A DNA stretch of 64,000 nt from Bacillus multifaciens (GTDB lineage Bacteria > Bacillota > Bacilli > Bacillales > Bacillaceae_G), in the NCBI RefSeq assembly GCF_030756675.1, contig NZ_JAVBXD010000020.1, positions 16,998-80,997 of the forward strand, in the 5' to 3' direction. The position numbers and the translations under genes are program-made. Below, piece after piece: positions 3,026-24,056 of the stretch (the first letter of the stretch is position 1; every line of letters begins with the position of its first letter). The notes beneath the pieces are model-generated. The model was not told the DNA's origin, searched no databases, and worked only from the letters and a program-made list of their open reading frames with translations.

Positions 3026-3048
3026 AAGGAATTTTGGGATGGAAACGT

Positions 3049-3292: not shown

Positions 3293-3395
3293 AGAATAGA
3301 AAATAATGAAGAGAACTACCTAACCTAAGGATAGCAGGAGAAAAATTATTTTATGGACTATCCAATTGAAGGAAATACTTAGAAGGGGGTTCGGT

Positions 3396-4322: not shown

Positions 4323-4357
4323 GCATAAAGGATGTAGCAGATGGGAGTAATGTAGAG

Positions 4358-5538: not shown

Positions 5539-5591
5539 GATAGTATCTTTCAATGAAAAGTGGTTCTATATTTTTGGAAGCAGGGGGAAAA

Positions 5592-7139: not shown

Positions 7140-7231
7140 CCTAGATAATATAATTTTACAATATCGTTAACATATCCAATCCCTTGCCTTTATATAGCAT
7201 AATATATAGAAAAATGAAAAGGTGTGATTGG

Positions 7232-10200
7232 ATGGAGACATATGTAATAGAGTTAGATAGGTGGAATATTAAAAACAATGGGACAAATTCCTTTGCTACT
7301 ACAAAGGGAATAAATGATGCGTTAGTGTGGGCTAAATCTGAAGGCTATAATCATATTATATTACCAGGCGGCACATATAAGTTAAAAATCGACAGTACAA
7401 CTTTTTCATGTATTGTTATGCAAAGTAATATGCATTTTGAAATGGCGGATGGATGTATATTGCAGTTAGAAGCGAATTCATCGCCTTGGTATAGGATATT
7501 TGAAGTCAAAGGAATTAAAAATACAAAGATTAGCGGTGGGAAAATAGCTGGAGATAAAAACATACACATATATGAATTAGGAGTAAAATTTGTAAGAGGA
7601 GGCGTCAATGCTGACGGTTCATTGAATAATCAATCAAACTTTATTCGCAGTGAAATAATAGATAGATATAAAGATCCAGGATTGTTGAAATCTTTTAGAC
7701 TATGGTCTATTTCGGGTTTGGCTGCCAAAGTATATAGTTTTTATCAGTATAAAGATACGGTTTCTGCTAGTACGCTGGCCGGTTTTAGAACAAATGTACA
7801 ATTTGCCCCGACGGAGTCAACAGGAAGAGGGTGGTTTGCACCAATAGCCAATGCTAATAAGATGGTTTTTGTGATTGACATTACCTCAACGCCGTTAAGT
7901 GATACTCAAATTGCTCAACTTACTGCTACAGTTACTAGTGAAAACTATACCCATGAGTGGGGACAAGGCATAGAAATAACTGGTTCAAATAATATTGAGA
8001 TAAATAATGTAGAGGTATGCGAATGTACTGGGGATGCTATTTCTACGGGATGGCTGCAATATAGAGTTAACCCGGATGAGTATACGCAAGAAGAAATGGG
8101 GTCACATATCTATATTAACGATTGTGATCTTCATCATTGCAGAAGACAAGGAATTACCCTTGGTGGCTCAAATGATATTTATATTTATAATAATAAAATA
8201 CATCATATCGGAAAAGCGAGTGATAATGTTTCATCGGATTTTCGTAATGGGACTGCTCCAATGTTCGGGATAGATATTGAGTCTCTGGTCAGTGAAAGCA
8301 ATATACCATATAAATCTCCTTACTACGGAAAAGATGGATTAGAATTAAATTTTAGAATCTATATTTACAAAAACTATATTTATAATAACGAAAGAGGACA
8401 TTTTGTAAACGCAGACGGTAACAATATAACAATAGAAGATAATACTTTTGAGAGTCGCAATGTTGGAGGCATTAGTTCGTATCCGACAAATATGTATGTA
8501 AAATATCTTAATAATATTTTTATTAGATGCGAGCTTTGGGTTGAGGGAGATAATTTTGTTAACGGGGTAATTGGAAACAATGCAAACGTAAAACTAGCCG
8601 ACATAAGAGGAGCCACAATACAAAATGTTCGCTTAAAAGACGGGATATTTTATGGCAATGGTAGTTATGGATACTTGGGAACACCTGCTGTAGATGTTGA
8701 AAACAGCACATTTTCTTTTAAAACGGCTCATGGTATGGGGAATTCTGCTCAAATATGTTTTGAAGAATGGGTAGGCAAAGTTCCTGCTGGAATTAGTGTA
8801 GATAAAGTATATTATGTAGTAAATCGAACGGACTATAGCTTCCGGGTTTCTGAAAAGATAAATGGTGAACCTGTAGCGATTTATGATTCAGGAGAATGGG
8901 GATTTAATGTAAGTAGATATAATTACGGGAGATGCTATATCTCAGATGTTGTAGTGGAAAGAGATTGGAATAATGACAGTTCACCAGGGTTTTCCCCTAT
9001 TCTGACAGGGGGGGTTATGAAGAATGTCGTAGTTAAGAATTACAATGTAGATATTAAGCCATTTGATAATTATGTGGGAAGACCGAATATAATAGACGGT
9101 TTAACTATAGTGGGAGCAGGCGGTAATATAAGTTCCTGCAATATAAGCGATAGTAAATTTATAACAGGAACGTATCGAGATATTACGCTAGGTTCTACGC
9201 AAAATCCTTATGTAGGTGTCTATGCAGAGAGTTGTTTATTTGAAAACATGGGTGTAAATCTTATTAACGCCGTCTTAAGTAATAGTAAGTTTATTAATAA
9301 TTGTACAGTTTATAAAAGCGATAATGTTCTACAGGCAATGTTAACTAATAGTTATTTAGAAAATAGTAAAATATTTCTTCACTGGCTGAGTTTACAAAAG
9401 GGAGTGCTCATAGCAAAATGTCTATTTAATAATGTAACTACGGACGTTAGTCCAAATACGATTATGATAGATAACTTAGATATAACTAACTCTTTAGCTG
9501 ACTTGAAAGCGCCTGTTGTTACAGCTACTCCAGGTGGAGGTGTATTTAGCGCTTCTCAAAAAGTAACACTAACTACGAATGAACCAGCTAACATGTATTA
9601 TACCCTTGATGGAACAACACCTACCACATCCAGTGCTTTATATACGGGAGGATTGACAATTTCACAATCCACTACATTAAAAGTTCTTGCAGTTGATAAC
9701 GCAGGAAATCAAAGTAAGGTAAAAGCATTTAGATATATAATTAAAACGGCTGCTCCGGCTGATGTCACAAATTTAATTGTTTCTGCTGTAAGGAATTCTA
9801 GTATTGATTTATCATGGACGAAAAGTACGTCTAAGGATGTTGTGATATACGATGTTTATAAAGGGGCAACTTTGTTAGGAAGTGTTACAGGAACAACATA
9901 TACTGCTACAGGGCTTGCTCCAGCAACTCTGTATACATTTACTGTAAAAGCGGTAGATAAGTTCGGGGTTGCTTCAAGCGGTGTATCAGTAACAGCTACT
10001 ACTACTAATGACAATACTCCGCCAAGTGATATAACAAATCTAGTTGCAAGCAGCATTTCAGTTAATACAGTTGGTTTAACTTGGACAAAGAGCGTATCCT
10101 CTAATGTTCAGTCATACGAGGTGTATCAAGGAGCTACTTTAATCAATTCTGTTACGACGCCTTACTATATTGTACCAGGATTGAAAGCTGCTACGGAATA

Positions 10201-10801
10201 TTCGTTCACTGTTAAAACAAAAGATCTAAATGGTAACCTTTCAAGCGGTGTAAATGTAAAGGTAATAACACAGACAACAGCAGCAAATTATGTAACAGAC
10301 GGACTTCTTTTATACCAAGAAAATCCTGTGAACAATTCAACTATTTTAAATCCGGACAGTTATTTTATAACAAATAAGCCATTTACAATTTCTCTCACAG
10401 TTCAATGTCCTATATCATCTTCTTTATTAAGAAGATTTGGCGGTTCAGATAATAAGTTTAAAATTGAACGAAATACGAATAACCAATTTGCAGCACAGTT
10501 TTGGGCTAAAAATATAAATACGGGCAGTAATGATTATCCTTCAGTTAGTTCAAGTGTTTATACTGATGAAACAGCCTATTATCAGGTGGTTGTCTTGCGA
10601 AATAGCGCAAATCTTATTATGTATGTTAATAATGTAGAAGCAGCTAGGTATATGATGGGAAGTGATAAGGTGATTAACGAATCCACACTGCCAATGCTTT
10701 TAGGTACAAGTGCAAAAACAATAGTATTTAAGAATATTGCTTATTATATCCGAGCGTTAACAACTGCTGAATTAACGCAAAATTATAATGCTTTAAAATA
10801 G
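7232..10801 (+). CDS. Large beta-helix surface/polysaccharide-active protein with FN3 and LamG-like tail
   Basis: A 1,189-residue multidomain protein. The N-terminus (TTKGINDALVWAKSEG then HIILPGGTYKLK) matches pectate-lyase-3/phage tailspike beta-helix entries. Right-handed parallel beta-helix repeats run to about residue 750 (many N-N-I-x-I-x-N turns). Next come a chitobiase C-terminal-like domain (about 758-834, MYYTLDGTTPTTSSALYTGG), two fibronectin-III domains (about 838-924 and 928-1013) and a concanavalin/LamG-like end. ATG 7232 follows AAAAGGTGTG; in-frame ATGs upstream lack sites. No signal peptide or membrane anchor is visible, odd for domains that usually work outside the cell. It could be a polymer lyase/modifier or adhesin with non-classical export. 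Enzymatic residues were not assigned. Confidence 0.75.
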   Translation: METYVIELDRWNIKNNGTNSFATTKGINDALVWAKSEGYNHIILPGGTYKLKIDSTTFSCIVMQSNMHFEMADGCILQLEANSSPWYRIFEVKGIKNTKISGGKIAGDKNIHIYELGVKFVRGGVNADGSLNNQSNFIRSEIIDRYKDPGLLKSFRLWSISGLAAKVYSFYQYKDTVSASTLAGFRTNVQFAPTESTGRGWFAPIANANKMVFVIDITSTPLSDTQIAQLTATVTSENYTHEWGQGIEITGSNNIEINNVEVCECTGDAISTGWLQYRVNPDEYTQEEMGSHIYINDCDLHHCRRQGITLGGSNDIYIYNNKIHHIGKASDNVSSDFRNGTAPMFGIDIESLVSESNIPYKSPYYGKDGLELNFRIYIYKNYIYNNERGHFVNADGNNITIEDNTFESRNVGGISSYPTNMYVKYLNNIFIRCELWVEGDNFVNGVIGNNANVKLADIRGATIQNVRLKDGIFYGNGSYGYLGTPAVDVENSTFSFKTAHGMGNSAQICFEEWVGKVPAGISVDKVYYVVNRTDYSFRVSEKINGEPVAIYDSGEWGFNVSRYNYGRCYISDVVVERDWNNDSSPGFSPILTGGVMKNVVVKNYNVDIKPFDNYVGRPNIIDGLTIVGAGGNISSCNISDSKFITGTYRDITLGSTQNPYVGVYAESCLFENMGVNLINAVLSNSKFINNCTVYKSDNVLQAMLTNSYLENSKIFLHWLSLQKGVLIAKCLFNNVTTDVSPNTIMIDNLDITNSLADLKAPVVTATPGGGVFSASQKVTLTTNEPANMYYTLDGTTPTTSSALYTGGLTISQSTTLKVLAVDNAGNQSKVKAFRYIIKTAAPADVTNLIVSAVRNSSIDLSWTKSTSKDVVIYDVYKGATLLGSVTGTTYTATGLAPATLYTFTVKAVDKFGVASSGVSVTATTTNDNTPPSDITNLVASSISVNTVGLTWTKSVSSNVQSYEVYQGATLINSVTTPYYIVPGLKAATEYSFTVKTKDLNGNLSSGVNVKVITQTTAANYVTDGLLLYQENPVNNSTILNPDSYFITNKPFTISLTVQCPISSSLLRRFGGSDNKFKIERNTNNQFAAQFWAKNINTGSNDYPSVSSSVYTDETAYYQVVVLRNSANLIMYVNNVEAARYMMGSDKVINESTLPMLLGTSAKTIVFKNIAYYIRALTTAELTQNYNALK

Positions 10802-10832
10802 GAACCAATCGTTAAATGGAATAAGGGAATAG

Positions 10833-10885
10833 AAAAAGCATCTCAATTTGTTATGTTAGAACAACGAACTGGTGTGCTTTTTTTT
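10833..10885 (+). terminator. Candidate terminator before galE
   Basis: AAAAAGCA (10833-10840) pairs with TGCTTTTT, with an inner TTGTT/AACAA pairing, and a run of eight T follows. It would separate galE from the upstream operon. Confidence 0.45.
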
Positions 10886-10930
10886 ATGTTTTGTGTAAAA
10901 AGACATATGATAACAAGGAGGAAAAAACAC

Positions 10931-11959
10931 ATGAAAATTTTAGTGACAGGCGGAGCAGGGTATATTGGAACTCATACGTGTGTAGAATTATTAAATGCCG
11001 GATATGAGATAATTGTCGTTGATAATTTTTCAAATAGTAAACCAGAAGCTTTAAAACGTGTTCGTGAAATCACAGGGAAAGATTTTACATTTTATCAGGC
11101 AGATATATTAGATAAAGAGATGTTAGATAGCATTTTTAATGAAAATCAGATTGATGCTGTTATTCATTTTGCAGGACTAAAGGCGGTGGGCGAGTCGGTT
11201 GCGTTACCACTTTGGTATTATCATAATAACATTACAGGTACACTTGTATTATGCGAAGTCATGAAAAAGCATGGTGTAAAGAAAATGGTCTTTAGTTCTT
11301 CAGCGACAGTATATGGAATGGCGGAACAAGTACCGATTTCCGAGAGTTTTGCACTTGGGGCAACGAATCCTTATGGACGCACAAAACAAATAATTGAAGA
11401 AATATTACGTGATTTGTATATGTCTGACCATGAGTGGAGCATTTCTCTTTTACGTTATTTTAATCCAATTGGAGCACATAAAAGCGGGCGAATTGGAGAG
11501 GATCCAAAAGGCATTCCAAATAATCTTATTCCGTACATTACGCAAGTAGCTGTTGGAAAGCTAAGTGAATTAAGCGTTTTTGGGAATGACTATCCAACAC
11601 AAGATGGTACAGCTATGAGAGATTATATACATGTTACAGATCTTGCGATGGGACATTTAAAAGCACTTGAAAAGATATCGAGATCTCAAGGGGTAGAAGC
11701 GTATAATTTAGGGACAGGATGTGGTTATAGCGTATTGGAAATGGCAGCCGCTTTTGAAAAAGCATCCGGTAGGAAAATTCCTTATAAAATTGTAAATCGT
11801 CGTCCGGGTGATGTAGCTATTTGTTATGCGAATGCAACAAAAGCTAAATTAGAGTTAGGATGGGTTGCTAAAAGAGGAATGAAAGAGATGTGTGAAGATT
11901 CATGGAGATGGCAGTTCAATAATCCAAATGGTTATGAGGAAAAAAATTATATATTATAA
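10931..11959 (+). CDS. galE: UDP-glucose 4-epimerase
   Basis: Interconverts UDP-Glc/UDP-Gal (or the GlcNAc forms) through a 4-keto intermediate with bound NAD. Short-chain dehydrogenase features are complete: GGAGYIGTH (7-15) for NAD binding, FSSSATVYG with Ser124, and YGRTK with catalytic Tyr148 and Lys152. It also has the galE-typical RYFNPIGAH and [13 protein letters not shown] segments. ATG 10931 follows AAGGAGGAAAAAACAC; the longer reading frame upstream runs through the terminator-like hairpin. 343 aa is slightly longer than the usual ~330. It supplies galactose-type donors for the polysaccharide locus; a Gne-like GlcNAc activity is equally possible. Confidence 0.93.
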
Positions 11960-12072
11960 GAGATGTAAGTGAGTAAAAAATTGTTGGTAATAGAGTAGAA
12001 AATAATACAAATTTTACTTAAAATAGCTAGAATTTGTATATGGAAACAGATTTCCTAAAAGAGGGTTTAAAC

Positions 12073-12228
12073 ATGAACATTTCTGAAAGAATAACTCAGC
12101 AGCAATTTAAAGAGATACTCCTATATATACACAGGAGAGGTCATGAATCAAAAAATGTGGAAGTAAACCATTTAATAGAGGAAATTAAACAATACCTCAT
12201 TTCGATTATGTATACATCTAAAAAATAA
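12073..12228 (+). CDS. Small protein of unknown function (51 aa)
   Basis: Frame beginning MNISERITQQQFKEIL. ATG 12073 has AGAGGG 7 nt upstream, which supports real translation. The protein is charged and helical, without membrane segment or cysteine; I do not recognise a family. It is isolated between galE and a bcr repeat, so a degenerate or orphan regulator is possible. Confidence 0.5.
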   Translation: MNISERITQQQFKEILLYIHRRGHESKNVEVNHLIEEIKQYLISIMYTSKK

Positions 12229-12272
12229 ATAGAGATAAAAAATTGATTCTAAGATTTATTGTGAAATGATAT

Positions 12273-12464
12273 TTATATAAATACGAATTGAAAATCGACA
12301 TAAAACCGTTCTTTATAATGAACTAGCACCTGTTCATGTGTAGATATGATCAGTACTTTTTCTGACACGTTCAAAGTGAAACAAAAGAGAGAAAACAAGT
12401 ATAGGTTCTTTTTTTCTGCATAACGGCAACTTATATGTTGAAAAATCAAAAAGATTTATATATA
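12273..12464 (-). repeat. bcr-type intergenic repeat, copy 2
   Basis: Terminal TATATAAATACG and GATTTATATATA form an imperfect inverted end pair. The internal landmarks are CGACATAAAACC, CATGTGTAGATATGATCAG, CTGACACGTTCAAAG and CTGCATAACGGCAACTTATATG. It fills most of the 307-bp gap between the small protein and the sugar transferase gene. Confidence 0.7.
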
Positions 12465-12535
12465 ACGAAAGCCTTTCATACTATCGTTCTGTGAAAAGGT
12501 ACTCACAAAAATCTTGGATAGGAGTATGATTATTA

Positions 12536-13126
12536 ATGAAAAGAACTTTTGATTTATTGATTTCTTTGTTTTTGTTATTGTGTTTATCTTTTGTCATCTT
12601 TGTAGTAGCCATTTTGGTTAGATTGAAGTTAGGATCACCTATCATATTTAAACAACAACGTCCAGGACTATATGGCAAACCATTTTATCTTTACAAATTT
12701 CGCACAATGACTGATGAAAAAGATAATAAGGGTAATCCTTTGTCTGATCAAGTAAGATTAACTACATTTGGTAAGTTTCTTAGGAAATATAGTTTAGATG
12801 AATTGCCACAACTAATAAATGTTGTGAAAGGTGATATAAGTTTAGTAGGACCGAGACCATTGTTAATGGAATACTTACCTTTATATACTAGTGAACAAGC
12901 TAAAAGACATCATGTAAAACCTGGAATTACTGGCTGGGCACAAGTGAATGGGAGGAACGCAATTACCTGGGAAGAAAAATTTGAATTAGATGTATGGTAT
13001 GTAAATAATCAATCTTTCTTAATTGATATGAAAATATTATTTCTTACACTAATAAAAGTGTTTAAATCAGAAGGAATAAATCAGGATGGTCATGTAACAA
13101 TGGAACGTTTTAGGGGGATAAGATAG
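12536..13126 (+). CDS. PglC-like monotopic phosphoglycosyltransferase
   Basis: Transfers a phospho-sugar from a UDP-sugar to undecaprenyl phosphate, the first membrane-committed step of glycan assembly. The 196-aa size equals the minimal catalytic (PglC/WcaJ C-terminal) unit. Visible are one N-terminal re-entrant helix (about 5-28), [11 protein letters not shown] (34-44), FRTM (55-58), the catalytic-dyad region SLDELPQL (86-93), [10 protein letters not shown] (99-108) and [11 protein letters not shown] (130-140). ATG 12536 follows GGATAGGAG at a slightly long spacing. With the next two genes it forms a PglC-D-E module, so the sugar is probably UDP-N,N'-diacetylbacillosamine or a close relative. 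Confidence 0.9.
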
Positions 13127-13146
13127 ACTGTGAGGGAAGGTAACAA

Positions 13147-13779
13147 ATGAAAATTATAATGATTGGACAAGGTGGTCACAGTAAAGTTATAAAGGATATT
13201 ATTTTGTCAAACAAGACATATGAAATTGTTGGATATTTAGATGATCAATATGAAGATATAACTATAGTAGATAATACTTATTTCGGCCCGATTTCAAGTG
13301 TAGATGAAATGATTAAAGATTTTAAGCAAGCAAAATTTGTTATTGCCATAGGAAATAATAAAGTTAGAAAAAAAATCGCCGAGAAATTGAATCTGCCTGA
13401 CAATTGTTATGTCACGCTAATACATAAAACAGCCGTTATAAGTCCGAATGCTAAGATAGGGAACGGTACAGTTGTTATGCCCCGTGCAGTGATTAATGCT
13501 GATACTCAAATTGGCAATCATTCTATTATCAATACAGGTTCTGTTGTTGAACATGACAATGTACTAGGTGATTTTGTCCATATTTCTCCACATGCCACAC
13601 TTACAGGTTCTATCATCATTGAAAAAGGGGCGCATATAGGGGCAGCGGCTACTCTGATTCCAAGTGTTAAAATTGGAGAATGGTCTGTTATTGGAGCGGG
13701 AGCGGTTGTGATAAAGGACATTCCCCCTAAGTGTACAGCCGTTGGAATTCCTGCCAAAGTAATTAATAAATTGAACTAA
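13147..13779 (+). CDS. PglD/NeuD-like sugar N-acetyltransferase
   Basis: Acetyl-CoA-dependent acetyltransferase of the NeuD/PglD family, expected to acetylate the 4-amino group of a UDP-4-amino-4,6-dideoxy-hexose. The N-terminal Rossmann-like part has GQGGHSK (7-13), which binds the UDP-sugar. The C-terminal left-handed beta-helix has the HDNVLGDFVHISPHATLTG run, with His136 as the likely catalytic base, and ends VGIPAKVI. It follows the PglC-like gene by 20 nt and precedes the aminotransferase by 14 nt, which supports one operon and the bacillosamine assignment. 210 aa is normal. Confidence 0.88.
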   Translation: MKIIMIGQGGHSKVIKDIILSNKTYEIVGYLDDQYEDITIVDNTYFGPISSVDEMIKDFKQAKFVIAIGNNKVRKKIAEKLNLPDNCYVTLIHKTAVISPNAKIGNGTVVMPRAVINADTQIGNHSIINTGSVVEHDNVLGDFVHISPHATLTGSIIIEKGAHIGAAATLIPSVKIGEWSVIGAGAVVIKDIPPKCTAVGIPAKVINKLN

Positions 13780-13793
13780 TAGGAGTGATAAAC

Positions 13794-14945
13794 ATGGTAA
13801 TAACACAACAGAAAAAACGAATCTATCTCTCTACTCCGCATATGAGTGGCAATGAGCAAAAATATATACAAGATGCATTTGATACAAACTGGATTGCTCC
13901 TCTTGGTCCAAATGTAGACGCTTTTGAAAAAGAACTCGCATCATTTGTTGGAGCTAGAGATGCTGCAGCAGTTAGTTCTGGTACTGCAGCTATTCACTTA
14001 GCTCTTCGGTTATTAGGGGTTCAAAAAGGGGATAAAGTGTTTTGTTCAAGTCTTACTTTTATAGCAAGTGCTAATCCAATTGTTTACCTAGGGGCTGAAC
14101 CAGTATTTATCGATTCAGAGCCAGAAACATGGAACATGTCGCCGCAGGCTTTAGAACGTGCGTTAATTAATGCTCATAAAAAAGATAAATTGCCAAAAGC
14201 TATTATCACTGTTAACTTATATGGACAGAGCGCAAAAATGGATGAGATCTGCTCTTTATCTAATCAATATAATGTTCCTATTATTGAGGATGCAGCAGAA
14301 TCTTTAGGTTCTACATATAAAGGAAAAGCTAGTGGTACATTTGGTAAATTTGGTATTTATTCATTTAATGGAAACAAAATTATTACAACTTCGGGTGGAG
14401 GAATGCTTATTTCTGATGACGTTGAGGCATTAGAGAAAGCACGTTTTTTTGCAACCCAAGCAAGGGATGTAGCACCTCATTATCAGCATAGCGAGACGGG
14501 ATATAATTATCGAATGAGTAATATATTAGCTGGTATTGGAAGAGCCCAATTAGAAGTGTTAGAAGGTAGAGTGAAGGCTAGAAGATTAATATTTGAACGG
14601 TATTATCAAGAATTATCTAGTATACCAGGGTTTTATTTTATGCCTGAATTAGAAAATACTCATTCAAATCGTTGGCTCACAACTTTAACAATTGATGAAA
14701 AAGAAACAGGCATATCTATTCAATCGTTATTGAAGGCTCTAGCTGAAGAAAATATTGAATCTCGTCCTGTGTGGAAGCCGCTTCATATGCAACCGGTTTT
14801 TGATGGAGTAGAATATTATTCTCATAGTGAAAATCACAATGTGTCTGAACAATTATTTAAAACAGGTATATGTCTTCCCTCTAGTTCAAATATGACAGAG
14901 ACGGATCAGCAAAAGGTTATTCAATGTATTAAAAATGCTTTTTAA
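13794..14945 (+). CDS. PglE-like sugar aminotransferase (DegT/DnrJ family)
   Basis: PLP-dependent aminotransferase that converts a UDP-4-keto-6-deoxy-sugar to the 4-amino sugar using glutamate. Family features: PHMSGNEQKYI start, SSGTAAIHLALRLLGV (cofactor phosphate binding), IIEDAAESLGSTYKG with the PLP-contacting Asp, and SFNGNKIITTSGGG with Schiff-base Lys195. AGGAGTG lies 6 nt before ATG 13794. 383 aa matches PglE/PseC size. The 4,6-dehydratase (PglF/CapD type) that should feed it is not in the window, so it must be upstream or elsewhere. A strong terminator follows. Confidence 0.92.
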   Translation: MVITQQKKRIYLSTPHMSGNEQKYIQDAFDTNWIAPLGPNVDAFEKELASFVGARDAAAVSSGTAAIHLALRLLGVQKGDKVFCSSLTFIASANPIVYLGAEPVFIDSEPETWNMSPQALERALINAHKKDKLPKAIITVNLYGQSAKMDEICSLSNQYNVPIIEDAAESLGSTYKGKASGTFGKFGIYSFNGNKIITTSGGGMLISDDVEALEKARFFATQARDVAPHYQHSETGYNYRMSNILAGIGRAQLEVLEGRVKARRLIFERYYQELSSIPGFYFMPELENTHSNRWLTTLTIDEKETGISIQSLLKALAEENIESRPVWKPLHMQPVFDGVEYYSHSENHNVSEQLFKTGICLPSSSNMTETDQQKVIQCIKNAF

Positions 14946-15574: not shown

Positions 15575-15916
15575 GTGATTGGGAGAAATATTTATCAAAT
15601 TCGAAAGAAAAAGGGGTTTACTTTATCTGAATTAGCAGAGAGAGCCGGAATTTCAAAATCCTATTTAAGTAATATTGAAAGAAGTATAAATCAGAATCCG
15701 TCTATCCAAGTGCTAGAAAAGATAGCATCCGTATTAGAATCAGATCTCAATACGTTACTCGAAGCGAAAACAAATACAGGAACAAAACAGCAGATCGAAA
15801 AAGAGTGGATTGATTTTGTTTATGAATTAAAAAAGGCAGGTATACATACAGAAAAGCTTGGGGATTACAAAATATTAATTGATTTTATTAGGTGGCAGAA
15901 CTCTAGGACGAGATAA
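15575..15916 (+). CDS. SinR-like XRE transcriptional regulator
   Basis: DNA-binding repressor with the SinR layout: an N-terminal XRE helix-turn-helix (MIGRNIYQIRKKKGFTLSEL then GISKSYLSNIERSINQNPS, residues 1-61) and a C-terminal Sin dimerisation helix pair (EWIDFVYELKKAGIHTEKLGDY). The 113-aa length and the M-I-G start match B. subtilis SinR (111 aa). Start is GTG 15575 with AAAGGGAGGG about 10 nt upstream. No sinI-like antagonist gene is adjacent. It lies between a polysaccharide locus and the lasso cluster, and the DNA after it carries SinR-type boxes, so either or both may be its targets (inference). It is probably a paralogue of the core sinR. Confidence 0.88.
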   Translation: MIGRNIYQIRKKKGFTLSELAERAGISKSYLSNIERSINQNPSIQVLEKIASVLESDLNTLLEAKTNTGTKQQIEKEWIDFVYELKKAGIHTEKLGDYKILIDFIRWQNSRTR

Positions 15917-17034
15917 GTAAGAGAAAGTATGAAATGTGTTAAGTAGTTTATCCTTGTTTAGAAATTGTACATAAAAAGATTGATTCCTCTTCATTTTCTA
16001 ATGTGCTCACTTTATAGAGAAATCAAGACTACCACCATGATCACACAAATTTGTTGTTAGCGTACATTTTAATTATCTTTTCACCTCCATCATTCAGATT
16101 AACTATAATATATTTTATTTCATTTCATCTAGAATTGTAAGCGTTTTTACAAAACGTAACAGTAATACCCTACATCTTGAAGTTCGACAAAAAATAAAAA
16201 GTTATGCAAGAGATAAACTTCTGGTACATTTTTATATAGATATCATTAAGATCCTGTTGAAAAAAGCTTCAGTGCATATTTATCACTCAATACTGTAAAA
16301 TAGGGAATTTATTTATGGTATTGAATCTATAATAAAAAATGAAGGAACTAAAGATAAAATTCTAAAAATTATATATAGAAAGTAAAGATTCTCAACATTC
16401 AAATTACAAAGAGGAAGAATATATCTCTATCCATAAATATTTCAAATTATATAAAAAAACATTTACAAACTGAATATCATTATATAAAATGAAAGCAAGT
16501 TCGTTATACAGAACGTTAATAAACTTAAATGTTTACTTTAAGGGAATATGTTTATTTGAATAGTGAAATGTATAATCTTAATTCAATGTAGATTCATTAG
16601 GTTTGGAAATGGATAAAATATACTTTTTCCATTAAAATTCTCTATAAAGAACTTCAAGGGGAAAACTTTTAAAGTTGAAAATACGCGATATTATATTGAC
16701 ATAATAAAATAAGGATGCTAATTTATATTTTGCGTTTGTTCTATTTATAGAACAAAATAGTGATATAAGAAATTATATGTATACAATGATTCGTAGATTT
16801 TATCTGTTATTTTTGTCAAACAATACAGATTCGTTCTTTAAAGAGAATGGATAGAATGAATAGTATAGAGAGTTTATTACATATTAGCGGTTATTTATCC
16901 TGTATTAACGATTAGTAACCCTTACTTTCAGATTCTGAGGAATTAAGAGAAAATAGGTGAAGAAAACCTCTTTGATAATCGTGTCACTTTATCTGATTGG
17001 ATATGACTTATTTGCTGCAAAACGGGAGGGAAAA
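15917..17034 (+). promoter_or_regulatory. Long regulatory leader upstream of the lasso cluster
   Basis: A 1.1-kb very AT-rich region without a supportable gene. It holds two exact copies of the SinR half-site GTTCTYT (16646-16652 on minus, 16833-16839 on plus), a palindrome with GTTCTAT arms (16735-16756) and GTTC-N8-GAAC at 16499-16514. A candidate promoter is TTGACA (16696-16701), 17 nt, TAATTT (16719-16724), lying between the boxes. On the minus strand, GGAGGTG at about 16082-16088 precedes only an 8-codon frame, perhaps a gene remnant. Site matches are by eye. Confidence 0.5.
16735..16756. promoter_or_regulatory. Palindromic operator candidate (SinR-like)
   Basis: TTTGTTCTAT-TT-ATAGAACAAA: perfect 10-bp arms around a 2-nt centre, just downstream of the candidate lasso promoter. 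Each arm contains GTTCTAT, one base off the SinR half-site GTTCTYT. Confidence 0.5.
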
Positions 17035-18975
17035 ATGAGTGCTATAACTGGAATTTTACATTTTAACAATGAGTCAATACCGATTGAATACGGTATTAGA
17101 TTAATGAATGATTTGCAAAAATATCCTGCTAATGATATTCAAATATGGCACAAAGAGAACGTTTTCCTCGGCTGTCACGCGCAATGGGTCACACCTGAGT
17201 CTGTTGGTGAACAATTACCTTTTTATGATAACGAAAGAAAATTGGCGATTACAGCAGATGCTATTATCGATAATCGTGAAGAGTTATTTGAGAGGTTGCA
17301 AGTCGATTATGCTGATAGGAAAAGGATAACAGATAGTCAGTTAATTTTGCTCTCCTATCAAAAATGGGGTGAAGAAAGCCCTAAATATTTGGTAGGCGAT
17401 TTTACCTTTATGATTTGGGATGAAAAAAACCAAAAATTATTTGGAGCAAGGGACTTTTCTGGGAGTCGAACTCTATATTATTGTTGTAATCAACAGCAAT
17501 TAGCTTTTTGTACGACAATACAACCATTGCTGTCATTACCTTATGTTCGAAAGCAATTAAATGAACAGTGGCTTGCTGAATACTTAGCGATATGTGGAAT
17601 GGTTGATGTAGCCGATACCACTATAACGCCTTATAAAAATATAGAACAAGTACCACCATCTCATAGCATTAGGGTAGTTGGGAATAAAGTAACGCTTTCT
17701 AGATATTGTACGTTAGTTCCAGAAAGAAAGCTTCGCTTAAAGTCAAATGAAGAATATGTAGAAGCATTTCAAGAGGTTTTTCAAGAGGCTGTTACATCTC
17801 GAGTACGAACTTACCGACAAGTTGGAGCACAGCTAAGTGGAGGATTGGATTCGGGTTCTATTGTGAGCTTTGCTGCCAAAGTTTTACGTGAAGAAAACAA
17901 ACCATTACATACATTTAGCTACATACCAACAAATGATTTCGAGGATTTTACACCTAAACATTTAATGCCGAATGAGCGACCGCTTATTAAAGAAACGGTA
18001 CGACATGTAGGAGGTATAGAAGACAATTATTTAGATTTTAAGGGAAGGGATTCCTTTTCTGAAATAACGGATTTCCTCGAAATTATGGAAATACCATATA
18101 AATTCTTTGAAAATTCTTTTTGGATGAAAGGAATGTTTGAGGAAGGGTACAAGGAAGACGTTGGAGTCCTTTTAAATGGTGGAAGAGGAAATCTATCTAT
18201 ATCATGGGGATCAGCTCTGGATTATTATGCTCTTCTTTTAAAAAGGCTAAAGTGGATTCGCCTAGCCCAAGAATTGCATCAATATAGTAAAAATGTAGGT
18301 GGAGCCAGGTTGCGGAGGTTACCATTCATTGCGAGGTTGGCATTTCCGTCTATTGATCGAGCGTTCTCATCAGGTACGCCGTATATATTTCCGATGGTAA
18401 TTAATCCGGATTTTGCAAAAAAGATGGATGTGTTTAATAAACTTAGGGAATATGGAATTGATGAAACGGGATGGTTTTCTGCAGCGAACATATATGAACA
18501 AAGAAAAAGTCACTTTGAAGAGTTGTTTCACTGGAATGCAAGTAATACAGTGGCAACAAAATTATCATTGCACTACTCATTGTGGAAACGCGATCCAAGT
18601 AATGACATACGTGTGATTCGTTATTGTTTATCTGTACCAGAAGAGCAATATGTACAAAAAGGTGTGGATCGTGCGTTGATTCGTAGATCTACCGAAAAGT
18701 ATTTGCCTGATAAAGTACGATTAAATCAACATATTCAAGGTGTACAAGGAGCGGATTGGGTTCATCGAATGAGTCCACACTGGAATATGTTTATAGAAGA
18801 GTTAGAGCAAATGAGTATAGACCAAAGAGCTTTAGAGTTTTTAGATGGTGAAGTAATAAAGCGAGCTCTTCTAAAAGCGAAAGAGGGGCCTCTTTCAGAA
18901 CGTGCAATCGATCCTGATTATAAGATTTTAATGCGTAGCTTAATTGTTTATCGATTTATTCAACAATTTAATTGA
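17035..18975 (+). CDS. Lasso peptide macrolactam synthetase (asparagine synthetase B-like, C protein)
   Basis: Adenylates the side-chain carboxylate of an Asp/Glu in the core peptide and closes the ring with the core N-terminus. It is an AsnB homologue: an N-terminal amidotransferase-like domain starting MSAITGI, then a synthetase domain with the ATP-binding PP-loop SGGLDSGS (268-275). Residue 2 is Ser instead of the Cys needed for glutamine hydrolysis, as expected for lasso cyclases, which do not use ammonia. ATG 17035 has GGGAGGGA upstream; the longer GTG frame (16957) would add residues before the usual M-S-A-I start. 646 aa is typical. First gene of a seven-gene set. Confidence 0.93.
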   Translation: MSAITGILHFNNESIPIEYGIRLMNDLQKYPANDIQIWHKENVFLGCHAQWVTPESVGEQLPFYDNERKLAITADAIIDNREELFERLQVDYADRKRITDSQLILLSYQKWGEESPKYLVGDFTFMIWDEKNQKLFGARDFSGSRTLYYCCNQQQLAFCTTIQPLLSLPYVRKQLNEQWLAEYLAICGMVDVADTTITPYKNIEQVPPSHSIRVVGNKVTLSRYCTLVPERKLRLKSNEEYVEAFQEVFQEAVTSRVRTYRQVGAQLSGGLDSGSIVSFAAKVLREENKPLHTFSYIPTNDFEDFTPKHLMPNERPLIKETVRHVGGIEDNYLDFKGRDSFSEITDFLEIMEIPYKFFENSFWMKGMFEEGYKEDVGVLLNGGRGNLSISWGSALDYYALLLKRLKWIRLAQELHQYSKNVGGARLRRLPFIARLAFPSIDRAFSSGTPYIFPMVINPDFAKKMDVFNKLREYGIDETGWFSAANIYEQRKSHFEELFHWNASNTVATKLSLHYSLWKRDPSNDIRVIRYCLSVPEEQYVQKGVDRALIRRSTEKYLPDKVRLNQHIQGVQGADWVHRMSPHWNMFIEELEQMSIDQRALEFLDGEVIKRALLKAKEGPLSERAIDPDYKILMRSLIVYRFIQQFN

Positions 18976-18989
18976 AAGGAGGTGAGAAC

Positions 18990-19145
18990 ATGAAAAAGGA
19001 ATGGCAACAACCTGTATTAGAAGTACTTGATGTTAACATGACAATGGCTTCAACAGTTTATGGTCCATATACTGACGAAGCATATAATCCTGGTACACCT
19101 GTTGATCCAAATAATCCAAATACTTGGGACCGTTTTACTAGCTGA
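18990..19145 (+). CDS. Lasso peptide precursor (A protein), 51 aa
   Basis: Short frame with the best ribosome binding site in the region (AAAGGAGGTG, 6 nt before ATG 18990). Residues 1-19 form a paeninodin-type leader: W5-x-x-P8 then LEVLDV (10-15) and T18-M19, with Thr at the usual -2 position. The core would be A20-S51: ASTVYGPYTDE, then AYNPGTPVDPNNPNTWDRFTS. Acceptor candidates D29 and E30 are residues 10 and 11 counted from A20; rings are normally 7-9 residues, so cleavage at S21 (D29 = 9) or T22 (D29 = 8, E30 = 9) is also possible. Bulky Tyr/Trp/Phe residues could act as plugs. The C-terminal Ser51 is the expected kinase target. Confidence 0.92.
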   Translation: MKKEWQQPVLEVLDVNMTMASTVYGPYTDEAYNPGTPVDPNNPNTWDRFTS

Positions 19146-19234
19146 TTGCGAAGTAGCATATACAATTTTTCTTGCTGAATGTATATCTATGAAGCTATGT
19201 AAGATGTTCTTATTTTTAAGTTTGTATATGCTAA

Positions 19235-19271
19235 AAAGACCTTTATACTTTTTTATTGTATAAAGGTCTTT
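19235..19271. terminator. Strong intercistronic stem-loop after the precursor gene
   Basis: AAAGACCTTTATAC (19235-19248) pairs perfectly with GTATAAAGGTCTTT (19258-19271) over a 9-nt loop. The plus strand has only TTTCATTT after it, so it may act as a partial terminator or mRNA-stabilising element that raises precursor over downstream enzymes. Confidence 0.7.
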
Positions 19272-19303
19272 CATTTAATCATGGATATATTGGAGTGAAA
19301 ATA

Positions 19304-20230
19304 ATGCTAGAAACTGAAAAAAAGGTTATGTATAAAGCCTTTGATTTCAAAATTTCAAGTGAAATTCCTTTGCCGGAATTAAATCGAATAAATGAGCAAG
19401 AGGTTTCGATAGACATTGAAATTGAAATTGATAATATGTTAAGTTTTTCCTCTGAATTAGTAGATACACCATTTAAACATGTTGTTAAAGATGATCAAGT
19501 GATGTTTTATGTTCCTGATGTGGGCTTTTTTTCCGCTCAAGCGGGAAAAAGGATAGCAGTTTGCCCACTCGATGGTGCAGATGATAGTTTGGTCAGGCTA
19601 TATATTCTTGGAACATGTATGGGTGTAGTATTGATGCAAAAAAAAATACTTCCTTTGCATGGTAGTGCTGTAGTAATTGATGGGAAAGCATATGCTTTTG
19701 TAGGTGATTCAGGTGCTGGAAAGTCGACGTTAGCTTCAGCGTTTTTGAAGAGAGGATATAAACTTGTAAGTGATGATGTAATAGCTGTATCACTTTCTAA
19801 CGATAATGTTCCTATTGTAACACCATCATATCCGCAGCAAAAGTTATGGCAAGAGAGTCTTGAGAATTTTGGTATGGATAAAAGCCAATATAAATCAATA
19901 TATGGTAGAGAAAATAAATACAGTGTGCCAGTTTCTTCTCATTATTTTTCTAAGCCAGTACCACTTGCGGGTGTATTTGAACTAGTAAAGACAGAGAATG
20001 AAATGATTGAATTACAACAAGTTGAAAAACTTGAGCGTTTACATACCCTCTTCCGTCAAACTTATCGTAATTTTCTCATTCCACGCTTAGGATTAATGGA
20101 CTGGCACTTTCACATTTCTACAAATATGATAAACAACCTTGCTGTTTATCGATTATGTCGACCGTTGTCTGGATTTAGTGCTCCGCAACTAGTAGACCTA
20201 GTAATAAACACTATAAATAAAGGAGAATAA
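19304..20230 (+). CDS. Lasso peptide C-terminal serine kinase (HprK-like, K protein)
   Basis: ATP-dependent kinase homologous to the HPr kinase/phosphorylase core, of the type shown in paeninodin clusters to phosphorylate the last serine of the precursor. Visible: LHGSAV (His119 region), Walker A GDSGAGKS (134-141) and SDDVIAVS (156 onward) with the metal-binding Asp pair. ATG 19304 has TTGGAGTG 6-7 nt upstream; the longer frame from 19256 would start inside the hairpin. 308 aa is typical. It lies right after the precursor, whose C-terminus is Ser, consistent with its job. Confidence 0.88.
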   Translation: MLETEKKVMYKAFDFKISSEIPLPELNRINEQEVSIDIEIEIDNMLSFSSELVDTPFKHVVKDDQVMFYVPDVGFFSAQAGKRIAVCPLDGADDSLVRLYILGTCMGVVLMQKKILPLHGSAVVIDGKAYAFVGDSGAGKSTLASAFLKRGYKLVSDDVIAVSLSNDNVPIVTPSYPQQKLWQESLENFGMDKSQYKSIYGRENKYSVPVSSHYFSKPVPLAGVFELVKTENEMIELQQVEKLERLHTLFRQTYRNFLIPRLGLMDWHFHISTNMINNLAVYRLCRPLSGFSAPQLVDLVINTINKGE

Positions 20231-20233
20231 GTG

Positions 20234-20539
20234 ATGTCGAAAAAGCAGGATATTTCATTAAATCAATTTATTGCACAAGTCCCAGGAAATATCGTAAGTG
20301 ATATGGATGGAGAAAAAGTAATGTTAAGTATTTCTAATGGGAAATACTACAATCTAGGTGCAGTAGGTGGAATTATTTGGGCGCTTATAGAGAAACCAAT
20401 ATCGGTTACCAAAGTAGTTACTGAACTAATGCAAGAATATGACATTGATCAGTCTACATGTGAAAAGCAAGTTATTTCTTTTTTGGAGCTTTTGTTAGAT
20501 GAAGCTTTGATTGAAATCGTAGAAGAGGCAGCCGAGTAA
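20234..20539 (+). CDS. Lasso leader-binding protein (PqqD-like RRE, B1)
   Basis: A 101-aa PqqD-family protein that acts as RiPP recognition element, binding the leader and delivering the precursor to the B2 peptidase. It has the fold-typical pattern of beta strands with GEKVMLSISNGKYYNLGAVGG, then IWALIEKPISVTKVVTELMQEY, a winged-helix segment. AGGAG is 8 nt before ATG 20234; the frame also allows GTG 20231 directly after the kinase stop. Split B1/B2 organisation is usual in Firmicutes lasso clusters. Confidence 0.9.
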   Translation: MSKKQDISLNQFIAQVPGNIVSDMDGEKVMLSISNGKYYNLGAVGGIIWALIEKPISVTKVVTELMQEYDIDQSTCEKQVISFLELLLDEALIEIVEEAAE

Positions 20540-20578
20540 TCTAGTATTTTATTCTAGATAAGAAGTAGGGAAGTGTGT

Positions 20579-21031
20579 ATGAATATACTAAAAAAGATAC
20601 GAACGTTTCTTTCATTAGATATGAAAACAATGTTTTTATTAATAGAGGCTTATATTTATTTGGGATGGGCTCGTATTCTTAAAGGTAGGCCATTCTCTAA
20701 GGTTGCTCCTACATTAGGTGTTCCAATGAATGAAACATCTTTAAGTTATAATGAGTCTAATAAATTTGTATTGAGAGATATTTCCGAAGCAATACATATT
20801 ATGAGCCGTCATACCTTTTGGGAAAGTAAGTGTCTTGTAAGGGCAATAGCTGGAATGAAAATGCTAGAGAGACGACAAATGGAGAGTACACTATATTTAG
20901 GAACTGCGAAGGATGAGAACGGAAATATGATTGCTCATGCATGGTTGCGTAGCGGCCCTTTTTATATTACTGGAGCAGAAGAAATGAAGAGGTTCACTGT
21001 AGTTAGTAAATTTGCTAGAAAAATTGGTTAA
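20579..21031 (+). CDS. Lasso leader peptidase (transglutaminase-like, B2)
   Basis: Cysteine protease of the McjB C-terminal type that removes the leader so the new core N-terminus can be cyclised. The catalytic residues are visible as SKCLVRA (Cys85) and AHAWLRSG (His120). The N-terminus carries a short hydrophobic region typical of these 140-150-residue stand-alone proteins. ATG 20579 has AGTAGGG upstream; an in-frame GTG 20573 is the alternative. It follows B1 by 39 nt. Confidence 0.9.
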   Translation: MNILKKIRTFLSLDMKTMFLLIEAYIYLGWARILKGRPFSKVAPTLGVPMNETSLSYNESNKFVLRDISEAIHIMSRHTFWESKCLVRAIAGMKMLERRQMESTLYLGTAKDENGNMIAHAWLRSGPFYITGAEEMKRFTVVSKFARKIG

Positions 21032-21052
21032 AAAATCTTGAAGGAGAATATC

Positions 21053-22240
21053 ATGCATAATAGTTTTGGGCTTGATTTAAGATGTGTGCCTAAGGAGCTC
21101 AAATTGCAGCTTGAAATCATGAAAAGAGAGACTGCTGCGGAGCTACAAGAAATCGATAAGGCTTGGTTTGAAAACATTGATTGGGATAAGTTTCTCGAAC
21201 TAACAATTCATCACCGTGTGTATTCGTTTATTTATCCAAAGATGAAAGTGTTGGATGGGAATTTGGTTCCTGTACATGTCATGCAAACTTTACATCAATA
21301 TTTTAAGATGAATACATTTCAAATGCTGCATTTAAGTGCAGAAATGGAACATGTGAGTAAATTGTTTGCTGAAAACGAAATTCGTCTCCTTGTATTAAAA
21401 GGTCCTGTACTTGCTGATGATCTTTATGGTGATATTTCTCTACGTACTTCGAGTGATTTGGATGTTCTCATTCCCTTACATAATCTCGATAGAGCGGAAG
21501 AACTTTTATTGAACCTTGGCTATGTTAAAGATGATTATATTGTTAGCGTTTTAAATGATTGGAAATGGAGACATCATCATATAACATATATTCATCCTCA
21601 GAAGAACATTAAGATCGAAATTCATTGGAGACTAAATCCTGGTCCAGGAAAGGAACCAAACTTTGAAGAACTATGGAAACGAAAGAGAATAAGTTCACTT
21701 ACTAGTAACCCTGTTTACATTTTAGGTAGGGAAGATCTATTTTTATTTCTTGTTTCTCATGGTGCACGTCATGGTTGGTCAAGGCTGCGTTGGTTAGTAG
21801 ACATTAATCAAATTGTAAAGCAACAACTTGATTGGGAAAAAATTATTAAGTTATTGAAGAAATATCATTACCTTCAAATAGGTAGTCAAGCATTGTTTTT
21901 AACTTCGCAGTTACTAAAAACTCCATTAATTGAAGAAGTGGAACCATTGTTATCTGGAAACCGTCCGAAGATGTTAGCACAAGAAGCAGTATTTTATTTA
22001 GAAAAAATGGTGAACTTACATACAGATCCTGTTCCAGATGACGTAGCGATGTACCATAGTCGTCACTTATTTTCATTAATGTCTTATCAGCAAAAGTTTT
22101 TATATCTTGTAAGCTGTCTTTATCCTTATCCAATTGATGCTGAAACATTGCCGTTACCTAAGCAACTTCATATGTTGTACTTTCCTTTACGTCCTATTTT
22201 ATGCATCTGGAGAAAAGTAAGAAAGCACGAATTATCATGA
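21053..22240 (+). CDS. Lasso cluster nucleotidyltransferase (NTP_transf_5 family, N protein)
   Basis: Member of the uncharacterised nucleotidyltransferase family PF14907. The polymerase-beta-like metal site is seen as KGPVLADDLYGD (116-127) and SSDLDVLI (133-140), whose two Asp should bind Mg. Such genes recur next to kinase-type lasso clusters of Bacillus. From memory, the homologue in the pseudomycoidin cluster further modifies the phosphorylated C-terminus; the exact group added is not something I can confirm here. ATG 21053 follows AAGGAGAAT. 395 aa, typical. It stands 21 nt after B2 and 13 nt before the transporter. Confidence 0.82.
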   Translation: MHNSFGLDLRCVPKELKLQLEIMKRETAAELQEIDKAWFENIDWDKFLELTIHHRVYSFIYPKMKVLDGNLVPVHVMQTLHQYFKMNTFQMLHLSAEMEHVSKLFAENEIRLLVLKGPVLADDLYGDISLRTSSDLDVLIPLHNLDRAEELLLNLGYVKDDYIVSVLNDWKWRHHHITYIHPQKNIKIEIHWRLNPGPGKEPNFEELWKRKRISSLTSNPVYILGREDLFLFLVSHGARHGWSRLRWLVDINQIVKQQLDWEKIIKLLKKYHYLQIGSQALFLTSQLLKTPLIEEVEPLLSGNRPKMLAQEAVFYLEKMVNLHTDPVPDDVAMYHSRHLFSLMSYQQKFLYLVSCLYPYPIDAETLPLPKQLHMLYFPLRPILCIWRKVRKHELS

Positions 22241-22253
22241 GGAGGACAAAATA

Positions 22254-24056
22254 GTGGAACATCTCTTATATTTTGCAAAGAAGTTACATTCTTTTTCTGG
22301 GAAAATATTGTATATAAATCTATTAGGGATGGCCTTAGTCAGTCTTTTGGAGGGAATAGGAATTCTTTTATTAATTCCTACGATAAGTATCAGTGGAGTT
22401 GTAAAGGTAGATAATGGTTCAACCCCAGTTCCAGAGATGTTAAAATTTCTGCACAATATTCCTGAAACAATAAGTTTGTTGCTTATCTTAGGCATTTATA
22501 TCTTTTTGGTAATAGCTCAGTCCCTCTTACAGCAAAATCTTACCCTTCGCAATACAAAAATTCTTATGAATTTTACAAACCATATAAGATTGGAAATTTA
22601 TCGTGCTTTATTACAGGCGAATTGGGCTTTTTTTGTGAAAAAGAGGAAGTCTGATCTTATCAATGCGATGACTGAAGAATTAGGACGCGTTATAAATGGA
22701 ACAAACTTATTTTTTCAGATGTTAACTGCCCTTATTTTTACACTAATACAGCTTGGAATCGCCTTATGGCTATCTGTAAAAATAACAATTTTTGTACTAT
22801 TCGCTGGTTTAGTACTTGCCTATTTTTCTAGACATTTTATAAAAAAGTCAAGAGCGCTAGGAAATCAAACATCTGAGATAGCTAAAAGTTATCTAGGGGG
22901 TATAACAGACCATTTTAATGGAGTTAAAGATATTAAAAGTAATATGTTGGAAGAATCTAGATATACATGGTTGCACAATTGGTGCCAAAAGATAGAGCGA
23001 GAGCAATTGGCATTTATAAAATTGAAAAATGGCTCACAACTTTTTTATAAAGTTACATCGTCTATTCTAATTGCATTTCTTATTTTTACATCTGTAAAAC
23101 TATTCCAAGCCCAGCCGGGACAATTAATATTAATTATCCTAATTTTTTCTAGGTTATGGCCGCGATTTACAAGTATTCAGTCTAACCTGGAACAACTTGC
23201 TGCAAGTGTTCCTGCTTTTAAGTCTTTAATCGAATTGCAGGAAGACTGTCACAAAGCCGCGGAACTGCAGGATATAGAACGACAATATAAAAATGTAAAG
23301 CCAATGTCTATAGAAAAGGGGATTGAATGTCGAAATATTTATTTTCGATACAATTCGAAGGAATCCTTATATGCTCTTCAAAATATCAATTTCCAGATAC
23401 CTTCCAACTGTATGACAGCTATTGTCGGTCGTTCGGGAGCTGGAAAAAGTACCTTAATTGATATTTTAATGGGACTTATGCAACCAGAAAAAGGACATGT
23501 ATTAATAGATGGTACTCCGCTCACAAGTGATAATTTATTGTCATTAAGAAAATCTATTAGCTATGTTCCACAAGATCCATTTTTATTTAATGCAAGCATA
23601 AGAGAAAATTTGTTGATGATTGAACCAAATGCAAGTGAAGAACAAATTTGGGAGGCATTGGAATTTTCGGCAGCTGCTGAATTTGTACGAAGACTTCCGC
23701 AAGGACTTGATACATTCATTGGAGATCGCGGAGTTAGGCTTTCTGGAGGAGAGCGACAACGGCTTGTACTAGCACGAGCTATTTTAAGAAAACCTTCGAT
23801 TCTAGTGCTAGATGAAGCGACAAGTGCGTTAGATACGGAAAATGAAGCGAAAATTCAAACTGCTCTAGAAAGATTAAAAGGAAAGATGACCATTATCGTG
23901 ATTGCCCATCGTTTATCAACGATACGTAATGCTGATCAAGTAATTGTATTAGATAAGGGAGAAATCGTTCAAAAAGGAGCCTTTGTCCAGTTGGCAAAAG
24001 AAAAAAGAGGTATGTTTAGTAAGCTGTTAGGAAATCAGGTAGAAGTTAGCGTATAG
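22254..24056 (+). CDS. Lasso peptide ABC exporter (D protein)
   Basis: Half-transporter with fused membrane and ATPase domains; works as a homodimer that exports, and gives immunity to, the mature lasso peptide. Six transmembrane helices lie within residues 15-320. The nucleotide-binding domain has Walker A GRSGAGKST (392-400), Q-loop VPQDPF, signature LSGGERQ, Walker B LVLDEATSALD and the H-loop AHR. There is no N-terminal C39 peptidase domain, consistent with a separate B2 peptidase. Start GTG 22254 has GAGGAGG upstream. Last gene of the cluster; a long terminator follows. Confidence 0.93.
   Translation: MEHLLYFAKKLHSFSGKILYINLLGMALVSLLEGIGILLLIPTISISGVVKVDNGSTPVPEMLKFLHNIPETISLLLILGIYIFLVIAQSLLQQNLTLRNTKILMNFTNHIRLEIYRALLQANWAFFVKKRKSDLINAMTEELGRVINGTNLFFQMLTALIFTLIQLGIALWLSVKITIFVLFAGLVLAYFSRHFIKKSRALGNQTSEIAKSYLGGITDHFNGVKDIKSNMLEESRYTWLHNWCQKIEREQLAFIKLKNGSQLFYKVTSSILIAFLIFTSVKLFQAQPGQLILIILIFSRLWPRFTSIQSNLEQLAASVPAFKSLIELQEDCHKAAELQDIERQYKNVKPMSIEKGIECRNIYFRYNSKESLYALQNINFQIPSNCMTAIVGRSGAGKSTLIDILMGLMQPEKGHVLIDGTPLTSDNLLSLRKSISYVPQDPFLFNASIRENLLMIEPNASEEQIWEALEFSAAAEFVRRLPQGLDTFIGDRGVRLSGGERQRLVLARAILRKPSILVLDEATSALDTENEAKIQTALERLKGKMTIIVIAHRLSTIRNADQVIVLDKGEIVQKGAFVQLAKEKRGMFSKLLGNQVEVSV

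Follow-up and report, generated by a model that had tools for sequence, protein, structure and literature searches.

The 64,000-nucleotide stretch of the Bacillus multifaciens genome analyzed here (contig NZ_JAVBXD010000020.1, forward-strand positions 16,998 to 80,997; hereafter the window, with coordinates counted from its first base) carries a complete lasso peptide operon at 17035-24056. The first-pass annotation had described seven consecutive genes in the order C-A-K-B1-B2-N-D, and our analysis bears this out: all seven are intact plus-strand open reading frames (ORFs), and profiles and motifs agree. The cluster family is already known. What we add are SinR-type sites upstream of the cyclase gene, an adjoining SinR homologue, and a conflict between a 9-residue ring and Thr(-2) in the precursor. 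We consider it very likely that this complete paeninodin-family operon is controlled by a SinR-type repressor. SinR-type sites were defined as GTTCT-N6-AGAAC inverted repeats and searched up to 600 bp upstream of the cyclase. The features concerned are as follows.

15575-15916, plus strand: SinR-family helix-turn-helix (HTH) repressor, 113 amino acids, GTG start, found with phmmer; proposed regulator of the operon
16499-16514, unstranded: SinR-type inverted repeat with one mismatch, GTTCGTTATACAGAAC
16637-16652, unstranded: SinR-type inverted repeat with one mismatch, ATTCTCTATAAAGAAC
16738-16753, unstranded: perfect SinR-type inverted repeat GTTCTATTTATAGAAC, inside TTTGTTCTATTTATAGAACAAA at 16735-16756
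16833-16848, unstranded: SinR-type inverted repeat with one mismatch, GTTCTTTAAAGAGAAT
17035-18975, plus strand: C, AsnB-like lasso cyclase, 646 amino acids; Asn_synthase PF00733 (E = 3.5e-23) and GATase_7
18990-19145, plus strand: A, precursor, 51 amino acids; paeninodin-family model NF033524 (E = 5.7e-16, 58 bits against a cut-off of 27)
19235-19271, plus strand: 14-bp hairpin in the gap separating A from K (19146-19303 folds with z = -4.28, a stability reached by none of 200 shuffles)
19304-20230, plus strand: K, HprK-like kinase; Hpr_kinase_C PF07475 (33.8 bits, barely above the cut-off of 33.3)
20234-20539, plus strand: B1, PqqD-like RiPP recognition element (RRE); PF05402 and NF033536 (136 bits against 80)
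20579-21031, plus strand: B2, transglutaminase-like leader peptidase; PF13471 and NF033537 (105 bits against 33)
21053-22240, plus strand: N, nucleotidyltransferase-like protein; PF14907 (E = 9.8e-59)
22254-24056, plus strand: D, ABC exporter, 600 amino acids; PF00005 and PF00664

Among NCBIfam models, C scores best with NF033535 for lasso cyclases (E = 3.6e-114; 383 bits, under the cut-off of 525), and the protein has an SGGLDS motif. The kinase keeps LHGSA, GDSGAGKS, and SDD (His, P-loop Lys, and Asp-Asp all present), B2 has Cys85 and HAW, N has LRTSSDLD, and D has Walker A, LSGGE, and Walker B. The genetic traits by which the family is recognized are found, namely a separate B1 RRE, a B2 peptidase, an AsnB-like C, and an HprK-like K together with a precursor that ends in Ser. 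The placement in the paeninodin/pseudomycoidin class, marked by the kinase and the PF14907 gene, also stands, with the precursor exceeding the curated NF033524 cut-off. The product is probably a knotted lasso peptide of this known family, phosphorylated and sugar-tagged. Specifically, K is predicted to phosphorylate or polyphosphorylate the C-terminal Ser of the precursor. By gene position and annotation, N appears to be the counterpart of PsmN and is predicted to be needed for a sugar on the phospho-Ser; in that system the attachment of one or two hexoses to the phosphate depends on psmN, through a route not yet settled, and the kinase phosphorylates the C-terminal Ser (PMC9266682; here and below, papers are cited for the portions of text available to us). 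The hairpin between A and K possibly causes partial termination or protects the A transcript; a simple scan between the two genes found no terminator, the strong hairpin notwithstanding, and a comparison of the window with Rfam gave no RNA element at gathering level. Given the operator-like sites at 16738-16848, transcription of the operon probably begins far ahead of 17035.

The 1.1-kb gap before the cyclase carries TTTGTTCTATTTATAGAACAAA, which at up to three mismatches is unique in the window and was found in 0 of 100 shuffles. It shares its half-sites and 6-bp spacer with TTTGTTCTCTAAAGAGAACTTA, a duplex that B. subtilis SinR binds with a Kd of 300 nM (PMC3163267).

Related clusters were collected in several scans. 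The species-genome scan gave 34 loci: 33 from Bacillota, with cyclases 50 to 69% identical to that of the window, and a distant Octadecabacter match (L034, 28%), which was excluded from the operator counts. Across all scans, cyclase relatives in further Bacillota were 44 to 69% identical. The order C-A-K-B1-B2-D holds in 31 of the 33 Bacillota loci, the exceptions being L002 (contig end) and L025 (rearranged), with N alongside in 26 of the 33. Because this order recurs in so many loci and also on a Priestia plasmid, chance is excluded. The nearest plasmid cluster is that of pB2.3 (70% identity across 70% of the query). On this Priestia aryabhattai plasmid, two annotated SinI-family anti-repressor genes (L035, 1197-1514) lie upstream of the paeninodin-type cluster.

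SinR-type sites precede most of these operons. The first set comprised 35 clusters, namely those of the 33 genome loci, that of the Priestia plasmid, and that of the window. A perfect site occurs in 23 of them, and 28 have a site if a single mismatch is tolerated. There are 31 perfect sites where the rest of the same loci would predict 0.8, and 54 sites with at most one mismatch where 2.3 would be expected. A second set of 48 clusters came from genomes unused before. It took the 30 top-ranking places out of 48 in one further scan and out of 76 in another, dropped 14 loci whose genomes had already contributed, which left 46, and added two other loci. Here 41 of the 48 clusters have a perfect site and 44 have a site when a single mismatch is tolerated, with 57 perfect sites altogether. 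By comparison, 19 permuted half-sites yielded zero or one perfect site each, spacers of 0 to 14 other than 6 yielded none, and gene bodies plus downstream sequence held four perfect sites in 164,775 bases. Over all 83 clusters, with L022 and L023 anchored on the cyclase proper (the first-set counts anchored both on an upstream cyclase fragment), 66 have a perfect site, and the number rises to 74 when one mismatch is allowed.

The arrangement of the sites is also informative. At least two sites occur in 50 of the 83 clusters, and in 25 of those 50 the nearest pair is 88 to 108 bp apart, a spacing across which a tetramer could connect both operators; looping has been discussed for SinR (PMC3163267). 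In genome G021, two of the three genome-wide perfect copies lie just upstream of a cyclase. Of the 11 genomes in which the palindrome was counted throughout, the three that have no cyclase match (G034, G035, and G049) hold 2, 9, and 7 perfect copies.

A candidate regulator lies next to the operon. The protein encoded at 15575-15916 aligns with SinR (PDB 1b0n/3zkc) over residues 1 to 111, which comprise the HTH and the C-terminal region (phmmer E = 2e-25). Among 33 genomes, the best match to this homologue falls within 40 kb of a lasso cyclase on the same contig in 29, where 0.68 would be expected. In the remaining four, G020 and one of the two cyclases of G002 are near a contig end, and the best matches of G007 and G026 are weak (E = 1e-6 and 2.5e-8), and the SinR-like ORFs at their loci are weaker ones. 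In one family of 193 genomes, using a homologue threshold of E <= 1e-28, both genes occur in 46, the cyclase only in 18, the homologue only in 27, and neither in 102 (odds ratio 9.7, kinship ignored); 43 of the 46 cyclase-homologue pairs are at most 40 kb apart. By these co-occurrence and pairing counts, the homologue probably regulates the polysaccharide locus that often accompanies the lasso operon. At one further locus (L147, genome G250), two lasso cyclase-precursor pairs are each followed by a kinase gene, and a SinR homologue lies between them.

The identity of the protein that would occupy the sites bears on how they would work. A tree of homologues, covering 28 of 29 lasso-linked proteins (that of G014 is absent) and 10 distal ones picked among weaker matches, splits with a support of 100/100. 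On one side are 26 rows (the window protein, 23 lasso-near proteins, and 2 whose linkage is not visible); on the other are 16, comprising B. subtilis SinR, all 10 distal proteins, and five lasso-near rows. The window protein is not the B. subtilis SinR orthologue but groups with the lasso-linked set instead, and its best NCBIfam match is SlrR, far under the cut-off. Both facts would fit sites bound mainly by an SlrR-like protein that acts unlike SinR, for example as its partner or as an activator. We think this less likely: the recognition region of the window protein (ISKSYLSNIER) is close to that of SinR (VAKSYLSSIER), and five genomes carry near the lasso genes a homologue of the B. subtilis SinR type.

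The genes on the far side of the homologue point to exopolysaccharide. Glycosyltransferases, a bacterial sugar transferase (PF02397), an epimerase, PglD-like and hexapeptide acetyltransferases, and a LegC-like aminotransferase occupy window positions 33-14945, which by their gene content are an exopolysaccharide locus ending with the PglD-like acetyltransferase and the LegC-like aminotransferase. The SinR homologue sits between this locus and the lasso operon. Ectobacillus L012 repeats the order of aminotransferase, SinR homologue, and lasso operon. Within the locus, a 1205-amino-acid ORF (7184-10801) has stretches that by eye resemble parallel beta-helix and fibronectin-III repeats and is perhaps a surface or matrix protein. 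Elsewhere in the first set of loci there are 27 perfect sites, 23 of them intergenic; eight site-neighbor proteins were run through Pfam, and that of L011 matched nothing. Such sites precede polysaccharide genes in some relatives: Wzz in L002, L016, L017, L024, and L033, and CpsB/CapC in L008.

This setting has precedents. Paeninodin and linear polyphosphorylated peptide (LPP) clusters often colocalize with capsular polysaccharide loci, and in Paenibacillus alginolyticus the lasso gene pbaB1 and an exopolysaccharide gene rise jointly in stationary phase (PMC13381572). The same study (Nat Commun 2026) states that the role of paeninodins is unknown and names a role in biofilms as untested speculation; its native-host test did not find the product masses, and the word SinR is absent from its main text. 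Promoters were predicted for Neobacillus lasso clusters, with SinR unmentioned in the text available (PMC11705953). Our literature search found no report of SinR control over lasso operons, with most subscription journals outside its reach, and its sole match for SinR plus "lasso peptide" was unrelated by title and abstract. That the window holds an ordinary paeninodin-family cluster, perhaps antagonistic, with palindromes that belong to the exopolysaccharide locus and precede the cyclase by chance would agree with the reported capsular setting of the family and with the sites that stand before polysaccharide genes at some of the loci concerned, but we regard it as very improbable, given that many clusters place sites near -150 and -65 relative to the cyclase start and that both separate cyclases of genome G030 have their own perfect site about 200 bp upstream, accounting for two of seven copies in that genome.

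Several observations nevertheless weigh against SinR-type control of the operon. Many clusters come from related species, so the counts are not independent. Nine of the 83 clusters (L005, L006, L007, L010, L026, L116, L117, L124, and L131) lack a site even with one mismatch allowed. One-mismatch controls were not empty, with the permuted half-sites TCGTT and TGCTT reaching 21 and 9 of the 48 second-set clusters against 44 for GTTCT; it is therefore the perfect-site counts that carry the case. In 11 genomes, the perfect palindrome is not enriched (2 to 14 copies per genome against 2 to 17 for a reversed control), such that only its position is special and not its genome-wide abundance. The two nearest sites in the window, at -297 and -202, are more distant than usual, and a scan of the gap for sigma-70-like promoters gave no excess over shuffles. 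Furthermore, the homologue is not exclusive to the lasso operon, as the 18 cyclase-only and 27 homologue-only genomes show, and in B. thuringiensis the eps operon is not under SinR control (PMC3909190). Taken together, SinR-type control is well supported by the sequence comparisons, and it would make the operon a member of the SinR/exopolysaccharide (biofilm) regulon.

A second question concerns the ring of the peptide. The window precursor has a WxxP leader (WQQP) ending in TM, a core ASTVYGPYTDEAYNPGTPVDPNNPNTWDRFTS (or the same minus its first A), and a C-terminal Ser. The earlier suggestion that the peptide may be new held against the 62 lasso peptides tabulated in PMC12427821, none of which equals this core. 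Identity with pseudomycoidin is ruled out (ASTVYGPYTDEAYNPGTPVDPNNPNTWDRFTS vs AGPGKRLVDQVFEDEDEQGALHHS). Thr(-2) has been described as invariant in lasso leaders (PMC10885120), though Ile or Val at -2 are known as exceptions (PMC10368454). Counted from Thr(-2), the window core has no acid at positions 7 to 9, and the ring-closing Asp would be residue 10. For this precursor, Thr(-2) and a 9-residue ring are mutually incompatible.

The same register is common among relatives. Of 78 readable precursors, a count that omits five of the 83 clusters in which no precursor was found by motif (L005, L103, L137, L138, and L141), 45 have an acid (Asp or Glu) at position 9, and the other 33 lack one there but carry one at 10; the window thus shares its Asp10 register with 32 of the 77 others. 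A C-terminal Ser is present in 43 of 44 distinct Asp9 precursors and in all 30 distinct Asp10 precursors. Five distinct Asp10 sequences also carry an acid at 7, which would formally allow them a 7-residue ring.

We infer that the Asp10 class either forms ten-residue rings or has its leader cut shifted by one. For the window product without modifications, the calculated mass is 3527.55 Da in the first case and 3456.52 Da, with a 9-residue ring, in the second. In the latter case, Asp10 leaders would be cut one residue later, leaving Thr at -3 and an ordinary 9-residue ring that starts at Ser1, Asp1, or Asn1. This possibility carries appreciable weight, since structurally characterized rings have only 7, 8, or 9 residues (PMC13352647), Ser1 is known in other lasso peptides (PMC12427821 table), and Asn1 occurs in metanodin (PMC12670498). 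In addition, a literature search for natural ten-residue lasso rings returned nothing relevant, with most subscription papers outside it, which counts against such a ring. We lean toward a true ten-residue ring on four grounds, apart from the reported invariance of Thr(-2). First, both classes mostly start with A or L after Thr-x (+1 is A or L in 29 of 30 distinct Asp10 and 31 of 44 distinct Asp9 precursors), while S or D is found at +2 in 25 of the 30 Asp10 precursors and never at +1 in the Asp9 class. Second, class membership tracks the cyclase tree, requiring 2 changes against 25.3 in shuffles. Third, when the same 33 rows are compared, the cyclase tree accounts for the class with 2 changes and the B2 tree takes 5, although B2 is short and its tree noisier. 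Fourth, in 5 of 12 multi-cyclase loci (L001, L008, and L143-L145), the stretch read holds one B2 and two cyclases that go with one Asp10 and one Asp9 precursor; the remaining seven have no Asp10 precursors. A ten-residue ring is also chemically possible, because fusilassin enzymes accept engineered rings of 7 to 10 residues (PMC13352647).

Cyclase positions 383, 387, 436, 452, 493, 499, 503, and 504 (window numbering) separate the two classes, and Ala436, His493, and Asn504 are invariant in all 33 Asp10 cyclases, a lead only. L001, L008, L015, L024, L027, L028, and L143-L146 are tandem clusters, in which a single K/B1/B2 set accompanies two cyclase-precursor pairs. Their second precursor often reads NGPGNANADCFDV... 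and has more tail Cys, which suggests a disulfide-bearing partner peptide.

With SinR-type control as the preferred reading, the operon would work as follows. In planktonic cells, a SinR-family tetramer, formed by chromosomal SinR and/or the 15575-15916 protein, would silence the operon from operators upstream of the cyclase. In matrix-producing cells, the repressor would be removed, as by SinI in B. subtilis, and the lasso operon would come on together with the exopolysaccharide genes. B1 would then bind the WxxP leader, K would phosphorylate the C-terminal Ser, and N would lead to a sugar on the phosphate. B2 would cleave off the leader behind its terminal Thr-Met, C would close the ring on Asp, and D would export the product.

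A SinR-type site before most of the operons examined, in several genera, provides a concrete candidate regulator and a testable clue to peptide function. If SinR control is true, the peptides should be made in sinR mutants and in matrix-inducing media. Likewise, if the Asp10 class makes ten-residue rings, ring sizes would extend beyond the characterized 7 to 9, and its cyclases could serve for larger threaded scaffolds. A broader reading combines the two, such that a whole branch of Bacillota lasso cyclases, that of the window included, makes natural ten-residue rings and paeninodin-type peptides are generally SinR-controlled matrix-phase products that act inside biofilms. We hold this conjunction tentatively, at slightly below an even chance.

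Comparison with known systems shows where the window departs from them. Promoters of the B. subtilis SinR regulon (eps and yqxM) carry several GTTCTYT motifs each, with inverted pairs bound best. In the duplex assayed for binding, 6 bp separate GTTCT from AGAAC, as in the window site (PMC3163267). The available text of that study mentions no lasso operon in the regulon, whereas the window site precedes one. LPP clusters share with the window a kinase, a discrete RRE, an NTP transferase, an exporter, and proximity to polysaccharide loci (PMC13381572). However, they are without a cyclase and have a SipW-like peptidase and YxxP leaders, in contrast to the C, B2, and WxxP leader of the window. Paeninodin, from Paenibacillus dendritiformis C454, is alike in its precursor model (NF033524) and kinase type, and its C-terminal Ser is the phosphorylation site (PMC9266682); its core, AGPGTSTPDAFQPDPDEDVHYDS, has Asp at 9 (PMC12427821), where the window has Asp at 10. 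Finally, the psm cluster for pseudomycoidin in Bacillus pseudomycoides DSM 12442 is alike in its kinase PsmK and nucleotidyltransferase-like PsmN, and the C-terminal Ser of its product is phosphorylated and hexose-bearing (PMC9266682), a comparison drawn through the description in that review. The pseudomycoidin core likewise has Asp at 9 (PMC12427821), while the window core differs from it in sequence and carries its Asp at 10.

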